Assembly: GCA_029549705.1 (NCBI GenBank)
Contig: JAKPIR010000119.1
Span: 1-34,275, forward strand
DNA: 34,275 nucleotides
Direction of reading: 5' to 3'
Source: Pseudomonadota bacterium
GTDB taxonomy: Bacteria > Pseudomonadota > Gammaproteobacteria > Burkholderiales > Methylophilaceae
The notes under the pieces are model-generated. The model made no database searches. It saw nothing but the letters and a program-made list of their open reading frames with translations, and was not told the DNA's origin. Positions 14,178-33,903 of the stretch are shown here, one piece after another (positions within the stretch are counted from its first letter, which is position 1; each line of letters starts with the position of its first letter). Both the position numbers and the translations under genes were made by a program.

Positions 14178-16004
14178 TTATATGGTCGGAATCTCAGCGC
14201 CAACCACACGATTTCTGCCAGACTGCTTGGCGATGTAGAGTGCCGCATCAGCCCTAGGCAAGACAGAATCAATATTCTCACCAGTGAGTCTTTCGGCAAC
14301 ACCAGCACTAAAGGTAATCAGCACGCGTTCATTGTTGTGTAGAAAGAAGTTTTTGGTAAGGTCGCGCTGTATCCCGGTAACCACATTCACAGCATCATTT
14401 TGTTTTGAGCCTGGCAGTAGGATGACAAATTCTTCACCACCATAACGTGCCAGCACATCAGTGCTGCGAAGGATGCTTTTAACCACTTTGGCCAGATGTG
14501 CGAGTGCCGTATCGCCCGTGGAGTGACCCATGGTATCGTTGATTTTTTTGAAATGATCAATATCGAGCATGGCGAGCGAGATGGGCGTATTGTGGCGGTC
14601 GGCACGTTCAAATTCTCGATCAATCGCATCATCCATGCCTCGTCGATTAAGTGCACCGGTTAAAAAGTCTTGGTGTGCAACTTCGCTAATGTAATCGAGC
14701 TTGGCGGACAATTCATTGATTTGCTTTTCAGCTTCTTCAACTTTTTTCTGAGTTTCTTCGAAGGCATTGTGTGAATTTTGCGCATCCGCGTTCATTTCAC
14801 GAATATCCCCCACCAAATTTTGCAAAATGGTATTCAGTTGCGTAATGTCTTCGGTTTCTGAAATTTGCGCTTGATACTGATTGATTTTGGCTTGATAAGT
14901 GCCAGTGCTTCTTGAAATATCTGCCAAACCGCTAACAAAGCTGCTCATCATGCCCTTGAGCGTTTCTTTAGCAGCAACAAGGCCTGGTTTAATGTTTGAT
15001 TGCTTATAGATGAGTTCTTTTAGGCTGCTTTCAGCATTATAAACGGTGTCAATATCCAGCGGTTTTGAAATAATATCCTGCACAATTGCAATTTGACCAT
15101 GTAGCCATTTATCTTCTATCGTCAGTTCACCCATGCTGGAAACCAGCAAACGCAGCATTTGTACCAATGACTCCTGCATGCGGTGTTGTGCATCGTTACG
15201 CATCTCGGCACGCAAAATGAACGATTTCAGTGTTTCACCTAATGCATTGACCTCTTCAACCGTGTTGGCTGCCTGGGCGAGACGAATGACATTCTCGATT
15301 TTATTCGAGGCGGCCGGTATGTCTGAAAATTGGGGTAAAACAACAAGCTTGATAGCTCTTGTGAGTAAGTCTCGCCAAGCTATAGTGAGTGCTTGCTCAC
15401 TCTCGGTTAATACTACAGCTGCTTGTGCCGGCGAATTTTTTTGAGTTGCCGTGACGGTTTCAATATCTGTTGTTGATTGAGTCTGGCTTCCTGTCGCGCT
15501 GCTGGCAGTTGTTGATGGCTGCCCCTCACCCCATGAGGTGATGAGTGCCTGAATTTTCTCACCTAGTTGGCTAGGGTCATTGGCAAAGTTGATAATAACG
15601 CGATTGAGCCCCTCTTTTTTACGGCTCAAGGTGATGCCTGTGTGGTTCACATCGAGCTGTTTCAGCAAATGGCGCAAAAGCGAGGGCCAATTCACACCAT
15701 CGGCCTCATTGGCGCTGGTGGGCATGAGTTTACGTAATTGGTCTTCTAGACTCTCAGCGTCACGCTTTTTAATGAAGGTGGCAATTTTTTGTGAGGTAGC
15801 GAGGTACTTGGGCCTGTCTTTACCGAGTTCCGTTAATACCTTTTCTAAAGATTTGCCGAGCACTTCTGCGTTATCAACGGATTTAATCCCAGCAATTTCA
15901 TCATACACACGGCGATAGTTTTCGGGCGTGGGCGGGCTCTGGCTTTTAGAAAGCTGAATCAGCGTCTGGCGCGCCAGTTCTAGAGGCGTTAATTTTTTAT
16001 CCAT
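14178..16004 (-). CDS. Diguanylate cyclase (GGDEF domain, canonical I-site)
   Basis: HQDFLTGALNRRGMDDAIDREFERADRHNTPISLAMLDIDHFKKINDTMGH and RSTDVLARYGGEEFVILLPGS: GGEEF A-site with RxxD five residues upstream. Confidence 0.94.
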   Translation of the reverse strand: MDKKLTPLELARQTLIQLSKSQSPPTPENYRRVYDEIAGIKSVDNAEVLGKSLEKVLTELGKDRPKYLATSQKIATFIKKRDAESLEDQLRKLMPTSANEADGVNWPSLLRHLLKQLDVNHTGITLSRKKEGLNRVIINFANDPSQLGEKIQALITSWGEGQPSTTASSATGSQTQSTTDIETVTATQKNSPAQAAVVLTESEQALTIAWRDLLTRAIKLVVLPQFSDIPAASNKIENVIRLAQAANTVEEVNALGETLKSFILRAEMRNDAQHRMQESLVQMLRLLVSSMGELTIEDKWLHGQIAIVQDIISKPLDIDTVYNAESSLKELIYKQSNIKPGLVAAKETLKGMMSSFVSGLADISRSTGTYQAKINQYQAQISETEDITQLNTILQNLVGDIREMNADAQNSHNAFEETQKKVEEAEKQINELSAKLDYISEVAHQDFLTGALNRRGMDDAIDREFERADRHNTPISLAMLDIDHFKKINDTMGHSTGDTALAHLAKVVKSILRSTDVLARYGGEEFVILLPGSKQNDAVNVVTGIQRDLTKNFFLHNNERVLITFSAGVAERLTGENIDSVLPRADAALYIAKQSGRNRVVGAEIPTI

Positions 16005-16258
16005 AATTTAACGGTTGCGTTTGCAGTCAATTTGTTGTTTGAATTTTGTGAGGCTACCCATATTAGACGCCATCATACCGAGTTAAGCAACAATTCAATT
16101 ACTTGATTAAGCGGGTGATATTGGGTTTATTACCGTGTTGGCGGATGATTCAAACGCAAATATACGAGCGTGAAAATGATAAAAAATAAACCGATTGCAT
16201 ATAAAAATACAAAATAAATTTGCACAAATTGTGAGGATTTTAAATACAAACCTTTTTT

Positions 16259-16370
16259 GATGCTCTGTACCAGTGCTTGGCATCACCATTCTCGCTAAGT
16301 GCTAAAGCACTAAGTCGAATGCGAAAGCCTTTATTTATAAGGCTTGCAGAGCATCAATTTTTTCTCGGGA
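16259..16370 (+). repeat. Composite copy (copy 2) of the palindromic terminator-like element, split by a ~56-bp hairpin-bearing insertion
   Basis: GATGCTCTG (16259-16267) pairs with CAGAGCATC (16347-16355); inner AAGCCTT-TATTTAT-AAGGCTT retained; AATTTTTTCTCGGG tail. Segment 16268-16323 is absent from the other copies. Confidence 0.7.
16287..16329. repeat. Second hairpin repeat element, copy A
   Basis: CTCGCTAAGTGCTAAAGCACTAAGTCGAATGCGAAAGCC aligns 33/39 with 22654-22692; flanking CATT/AATG stem. Confidence 0.6.
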
Positions 16371-22629: not shown

Positions 22630-22646
22630 AAGACCGCAAGGGTCTT
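22630..22646. other. Short perfect hairpin
   Basis: AAGACC-GCAAG-GGTCTT. Confidence 0.45.
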
Positions 22647-22649
22647 CCC

Positions 22650-22692
22650 CAACCTCGCTAAGTGCTGAAGCACTGAGTCGGTTGTGAGAGCC
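22650..22692. repeat. Second hairpin repeat element, copy B
   Basis: CTCGCTAAGTGCTGAAGCACTGAGTCGGTTGTGAGAGCC aligns 33/39 with 16291-16329; flanking CAAC/GTTG stem. Confidence 0.6.
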
Positions 22693-28410: not shown

Positions 28411-28460
28411 GTATCAGAAATTGATCTGAAAAAATCACTCAGCCAACCATAAAAAACTAC

Positions 28461-28511
28461 GAGAAAAAATATATGCTCTGGAAGCCTTTATTTACAAGGC
28501 TTCCAGAGCAT
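28461..28511 (-). terminator. Palindromic terminator-like element (copy 3), oriented as terminator of gltA
   Basis: Perfect 16-bp arms ATGCTCTGGAAGCCTT (28473-28488) / AAGGCTTCCAGAGCAT (28496-28511), loop TATTTAC; on the minus strand followed by ATATTTTTTCTCG. Confidence 0.8.
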
Positions 28512-28538
28512 CAAAAAAGGTTGCGTGCTTAATGTACG

Positions 28539-33796: not shown

Positions 33797-33849
33797 TTAA
33801 AGTAATAAATATCCAGTTCATCTAGTTATTTTATGGGCAACCTTTTTCG

Positions 33850-33903
33850 ATGCTCTGAAAGCCTTTATTTACAAGGCTTTCAGAGCATAATTTTTTTCTC
33901 GAG
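33850..33903 (+). terminator. Palindromic terminator-like element (copy 4), oriented as terminator of tyrS
   Basis: Perfect 16-bp arms ATGCTCTGAAAGCCTT (33850-33865) / AAGGCTTTCAGAGCAT (33873-33888), loop TATTTAC, tail AATTTTTTTCTCGAG. Confidence 0.85.

Follow-up and report, generated by a model that had tools for sequence, protein, structure and literature searches.

A composite of two repeats occupies the intergenic region upstream of gmk (positions 16250–16369), where a 57-bp double hairpin interrupts the 5′ arm of a dispersed host palindrome. The insert is very probably a separate, non-autonomous mobile element of REP-like build, which enters CTG^(N)AAGC in the arm or loop of palindromes and plays no likely role in gmk expression, being a selfish repeat in a tolerant intergenic site. 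As judged by comparison of related genomes, it is present or absent at orthologous sites, has a fixed position and orientation relative to its target, produces no target duplication and spreads independently of its host.

Architecture of the composite and its host palindrome

The analyzed DNA (hereafter, the window) is the 34,275-nt contig C212 of genome G000. Closest matches to its Gmk protein are mostly from Methylotenera assemblies. The composite lies between a divergent gene for a GGDEF protein (14178–16004, minus strand) and gmk, which starts on the plus strand at about 16495 (Table 1). The initial annotation described a palindrome with outer arms GATGCTCTG (16259–16267) and CAGAGCATC (16347–16355). 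Both are exact, and the pairing runs on to 11 nt (TTGATGCTCTG/CAGAGCATCAA). The inner stem is also present as described, with AAGCCTT at 16325–16331, the loop TATTTAT at 16332–16338 and AAGGCTT at 16339–16345. The segment interrupting the 5′ arm does carry a hairpin of its own, but it is 57 nt long (16268–16324) and not ~56 nt (16268–16323) as given initially. It stands in place of one base of the uninterrupted copies, for a net gain of 56 nt. Closure of the outer stem around both hairpins, considered feasible in the initial annotation, is seen in minimum-energy folds of either strand, both as RNA (−42.2 and −42.1 kcal/mol, z −4.1 and −4.6) and as DNA (z −5.3 and −4.9). The composite fold beats each of 200 shuffles, as RNA or DNA and on either strand.

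Table 1. Repeat features of the window and the observations on which they rest
Feature	Position	Strand	Basis
Composite element (host palindrome and insert), ACCTTTTTT to TTTTTTCTCGGG	16250–16369	+	Matches other composites at 84–96% over most of its length, in a copy search that scored 40 of 252 candidates
Host palindrome, 5′ outer arm TTGATGCTCTG	16257–16267	+	Sequence
Inserted 57-nt double-hairpin unit, TACCAGTGCTTGGC-ATCACC-(hairpin)-GCGA	16268–16324	+	Missing at the orthologous site; 7 copies in G000; 57/57 identical copies in G033
Head hairpin of the insert (CCA/TGG)	16270–16280	+	96% of cells keep pairs in 18 relatives, with compensatory changes
Main hairpin of the insert (CATTC..GCT.AGTGC TAAA GCACT.AGT..GAATG)	16287–16321	+	94% of cells keep pairs; both sides changed in 5 of 13 pairs
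Host inner stem-loop, AAGCCTT-TATTTAT-AAGGCTT	16325–16345	+	Common to uninterrupted copies
Host palindrome, 3′ outer arm CAGAGCATCAA	16347–16357	+	Sequence
Conserved right flank of the host element, TTTTTTCTCGGG	16358–16369	+	Common to uninterrupted copies
Uninterrupted host copy downstream of the citrate synthase gene	28460–28521	−	
Uninterrupted host copy downstream of the tyrosyl-tRNA synthetase gene	33840–33901	+	
Right half of another uninterrupted host copy, at the contig end	1–30	+	
Free-standing relative of the insert (GACCGCAAGGGTC-TTCCCC-hairpin-GTGAGAGCC), outside palindromes of the host family	22632–22692	+	

The host is a dispersed palindrome of ~65 bp. Its core pattern, CTG-N-RAGCCTT-N7-AAGGCTT-N-CAG with at most three mismatches (each place being seen on both strands), matches about 233 uninterrupted copies in G000 (Methylotenera), about 282 in the sister genome G034 and about 87 in G033, versus 0 for the reversed control pattern. 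The copy number in G000 against that control, together with six further composites, argues that the palindrome is not a chance structure. Uninterrupted copies share a left flank ACCTTTTT and the right flank listed in Table 1, and the stems vary by matched changes (GCTCTG/CAGAGC and GCCCTG/CAGGGC). The host loop occurs in both orientations relative to the asymmetric flanks (L024 and the window copy at 28460–28521 versus L014), as if the tip of the hairpin flips. Host copies are nearly all found between called genes. Among the 46 flanked by called genes on either side, 17 have convergent neighbours, 26 codirectional ones (T-run in sense in 11, antisense in 15) and 3 divergent ones. This distribution of gene orientations points to a tolerated intergenic repeat rather than a strand-specific terminator. 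A role as intrinsic terminator was considered and set aside for want of a sense-strand bias; at single sites, the palindrome may still have such an effect. The gmk site belongs to the rare divergent class.

Occupied and empty sites, and spread of the insert

The interrupting segment is not part of the standard form of the palindrome. G000 contains seven composites, the one at gmk and six more, versus about 233 uninterrupted copies; composites thus make up about 3% of host copies in this genome, and a search of G034 found none. All seven inserts separate the outer CTG from the inner AAGCC, and the GCGA end (GTGA in two) abuts AAGCC. Five occupy the ACCTTTTT-side arm; the other two (L004, L005) occupy the opposite arm. 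Since the palindromic host has CTG-N-AAGCC once per strand, one target and one orientation account for both arms. Three insert subtypes are found at this one position, represented by L001–L003, L004–L005 and L006–L007, the last of them with a TACCCGCAAGTGGC head.

The closest relative found is L042 (JAKQTB010000108.1), with gmk DNA 87.8% identical to that of the window; G034 (JAKQTB01) appears to be the same assembly as G001/L042. Flank pieces of the composites are 78–93% identical between G034 and G000. Comparison with a close relative had been proposed as a check, and L042 has, at the same place upstream of gmk, not an unrelated sequence but the uninterrupted palindrome CGATGCTCTG-G-AAGCCTTTGTTTATAGGGCTCGTAGAGCAT, with both flanks alignable and matching. 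The same holds for six out of six testable composite sites, gmk included, all of which have an uninterrupted palindrome in G034. Five of these (gmk and four others) could be aligned on both sides and differ by a clean 56–57 nt, with no target duplication. Since the insert takes the place of the single base N, the gap measures 56 nt (57 nt in L006). At the sixth site (L004), the G034 match covers the left flank and continues through the element. L007 was left out as a paired site, as its contig ends in the element. These uninterrupted palindromes at orthologous sites support the initial suggestion that one mobile hairpin was inserted into another. In a second before/after comparison, based on eleven composites of G033, the nearest relatives among the genomes compared are 70–85% identical and some sites appear to lack the whole element, so that the exact junctions are unreadable.

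G033, the assembly of L043 (JAKQIT01), contains at least 18 composite-type copies. Several of its inserts are 57/57 identical to that of the window, despite only 76.9% identity of gmk DNA, and its host loops are mostly AGTATCCATGC where G000 has TTTATTTATAA. An identical insert in diverged genomes with different host loops indicates that the insert travels apart from the host palindrome, and these sequences suggest that it probably moves between species. No carriers of the unit were found among viral contigs, plasmids and phages.

Units with the same head (ACCAGTRCTTGGC-ATCACC), a GCGAAAGC-like tail and differing main hairpins are scattered through the genus, and insert matches at E ≤ 0.1 are found in 37 of 52 genomes. 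Their hosts are diverse. In L164 and L173 the unit occupies the loop of a REP-like hairpin, GTGGAATATAT..ATTATTC (AATATAT-type REP loops); in L221, L225 and L156 it lies within a TAAGYGCT..AAGCACTT palindrome. REP-type units also split a GTTCCCTGAGCTTGTCGAAGGG repeat at CCCTG^AGC in three genomes (L172, L174, L175). In these other host families the right junction is always (A)AGC and the left junction is TG in most cases (usually CTG). Across 18 diverse units, 94.4% of pairs are kept over both hairpins, with 22 compensatory cells versus 4.2 in shuffles, and sliding the pairing partner destroys this covariation signal. We tentatively envisage a genus-wide family of gene-less double hairpins for which other palindromes, and units of their own kind, would serve as site-specific landing pads (CTG^(N)AAGC). 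Intergenic repeats would thereby lengthen through nesting and pass from one species to another, driven by a trans-acting transposase that targets extruded hairpins; this broader picture is about as easily doubted as believed, with the balance slightly toward doubt.

Several individual arrangements were also observed. L171 (1504–1620; G014:C344) is nested at two levels: one unit sits within the loop of another member of its own family, once more just before AAGC. In L198 (G033:C139:76322–76460), two units with different main hairpins are inverted within one palindrome, resembling a hybrid REPIN. L169 (G024:C220:217–584) contains two double-hairpin units about 318 bp apart, apparently inside a repetitive coding region.

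Mechanism of movement and alternative readings

The element would recognize CTG^(N)AAGC in the arm or loop of a palindrome (GCTT^(N)CAG on the other strand), move as single-stranded hairpin DNA and be joined to the target by a Y1/HUH transposase of the RAYT/IS200-like kind acting in trans. Our best inference for the mover is an HUH-type single-strand transposase, because of the short fixed target, the lack of duplication, the hairpin substrate and the REP-like tail. TnpA-REP has been shown to cleave at CT dinucleotides next to a hairpin (PMC8266576). PF01797 genes are found in 30 of 52 genomes. They are present in all eight genomes (≥1.9 Mb) with five or more insert matches versus 17 of 32 others (Fisher p = 0.016; Spearman rho 0.48; values not corrected for kinship). 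G000 has two such genes, one of them with a stop codon, and none was detected in G034, where no composite was found.

PF01797 (RAYT) genes were examined as cognate partners by inspection of their flanks at 27 loci. None of the 27 genes is flanked on both sides by the insert unit, as a REPtron would be, and other repeats lie beside them. At the L221 locus, a REP-type unit with an insert-type head is located about 270 bp away from the gene, whose own REP is GTAGGAGCGC... The RAYT genes of L205 (G033:C14) and L208 (G000:C338) each have a host-family short palindrome nearby, which follows the gene in L205 and precedes it by about 100 bp in L208; the genes' own flanking repeats are different. L201, L202 and L203 are RAYT-like genes between GTGGTCTGTCCCC/GGGGACAGACCACG inverted repeats, like the TIR type in PMC3733652. 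At the junction the short palindrome has also lost one host base, the N that separates CTG from AAGCC. Simple strand transfer does not predict such a loss, which counts against the proposed mechanism.

Owing to the lost base and the result at the 27 loci, the main rival on mechanism is a transposase-free route, in which the insert spreads by template switching or by short-tract gene conversion. A stalled strand would pair via CTCTG and AAGCC with a composite elsewhere and copy the 57 nt. Replacement of the single base between CTG and AAGCC, as by a conversion tract, agrees with this route, as do the 5–9 nt of homology supplied on each side by the host arms and the failure to find a cognate transposase in the flanks of the PF01797 loci. 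However, no more than about 2–4 nt are shared at the junctions by units whose host families are quite different, identical inserts in different species require an entry step, and three subtypes reached one position. We thus regard this route as rather unlikely, though it deserves serious attention. It concerns the mechanism only, and the insert is mobile either way.

A different possibility is that the composite is ancestral and the short palindrome a deletion product, the 56-nt segment having been lost at six sites in G034. Composites in several other Methylotenera genomes, including the closed genome G052, are in line with this. Yet it requires at least six precise deletions in one lineage at ends without direct repeats, composites are a small minority of copies in G000, and inserts are more alike between species than their hosts are. 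We consider such a history improbable. Insertion in the G000 lineage is the simplest reading of the aligned sites, since the alternative needs six precise deletions. The same six sites were present in no outgroup, so the inferred direction (gain rather than loss) rests on copy numbers and parsimony.

The initial annotation had also offered a branched RNA as an explanation. A stable fold on both strands, and a hairpin with a T-run upstream of gmk, would suit a functional branched RNA or a gmk attenuator. However, composites occur at unrelated loci, the branched form is not kept in the sister species, and Rfam covariance models gave no match at gathering score and nothing credible. Palindromes between codirectional genes have no preference for the sense strand either (T-run downstream in 11, opposite in 15). 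Several relatives, most of them without the element, conserve a TGGTATGAT motif that lies at about 16456, some 40 bp ahead of gmk, so the gmk promoter probably lies downstream of the composite. An RNA function is therefore highly improbable and this part of the initial proposal is not upheld. Insertion at gmk seems to have been neutral or nearly so, because the composite is not conserved even between sister species.

An assembly artefact or contamination can be practically dismissed: the assembly is fragmented (426 contigs) and repeats are frequent at contig ends (one composite, C20, is there), but for five composites the two flanks match the sister genome collinearly, the same composite is found in the closed genome G052, and composites also occur in G022, G035 and G036, so they are not a product of one assembly.

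Relation to known repeat systems

Other repeats can thus serve very small repeats as landing sites, nesting of this kind can build complex intergenic mosaics, and branched intergenic folds should be taken for RNA genes only with caution. Cyanobacterial small dispersed repeats are likewise very small and mobile and can nest. For gene-less repeats of 20–60 bp, sites before and after insertion are rarely caught. Target choice, insertion polarity and the responsible enzyme are directly testable here, because two sister genomes offer six site pairs and hundreds of empty targets, along with a precise target rule. No description of these Methylotenera repeats or of their target rule was found in the literature searched, most subscription journals being outside the search.

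The closest likeness is to REP/REPIN elements (RAYT, TnpA-REP), which are also small intergenic hairpins without target duplication. Among the other units of the insert family, L198, L221 and L225 resemble REPs in their GTAG/GTGG foot and in a tail of GCGAAAGC or GTGAAAGC, and L198 contains an inverted pair. Like GTAG-tagged REPs, both repeats are intergenic and dispersed in high copy number, with about 233 copies of the host in G000 and, for the insert, 7 in G000 and at least 18 in G033. By contrast, the window insert has an extra head hairpin, a fixed target in other palindromes and no RAYT gene found flanked by it. GTAG/GTGG is absent from the 5′ foot of both repeats (CACC-ATTC in the insert, TTTTTYGATGC in the host), while it is present in the same-head units L198, L221 and L225. 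The CGTC tag is absent from both ends of insert and host. Because the GTAG, CGTC and RAYT-flank tests failed, the insert is not filed as a REP, yet it behaves like one and has REP-tagged cousins. Nor is it a REPIN, in which two inverted REPs form the unit, since it is a single unit; the one inverted pair is elsewhere (L198). It also differs from MITEs, as its ends (TACCAG/GCGA) are not inverted repeats and there is no target duplication at the aligned sites. A fixed short target without duplication is shared with IS200/IS605-like elements: the unit always precedes (A)AGC and mostly follows CTG, with one host base lost in the short palindrome.

REPs within palindromes have had a passing mention, for A. 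variabilis GTAG-15, T. roseum GTAG-23 and H. neapolitanus CGTC-1 (PMC3733652, section 7). There too, a small palindrome occupies a defined palindromic target, and the target consensus in H. neapolitanus also has GCTT and AAGC. However, empty targets were reported there only in T. roseum and without before/after sites, whereas here there are hundreds of empty targets and six site pairs. The REP-specific insertion sequences ISPpu9, ISPsy8 and ISRm22 (PMC1525189) likewise insert site-specifically into dispersed palindromes, but they are full insertion sequences with a transposase gene, as opposed to 57 nt without a gene. Further parallels are the GC clusters of yeast mitochondria (GC42), tiny mobile hairpins with an AG dinucleotide as target site (PMC4478555), and the double-hairpin elements of Allomyces mitochondria, as cited in the same source. 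These are organellar, and we claim no sequence relation. As far as that source describes them, they resemble the Methylotenera insert in being tiny mobile hairpins, in the merger and shuffling of palindromes and in transfer between species.
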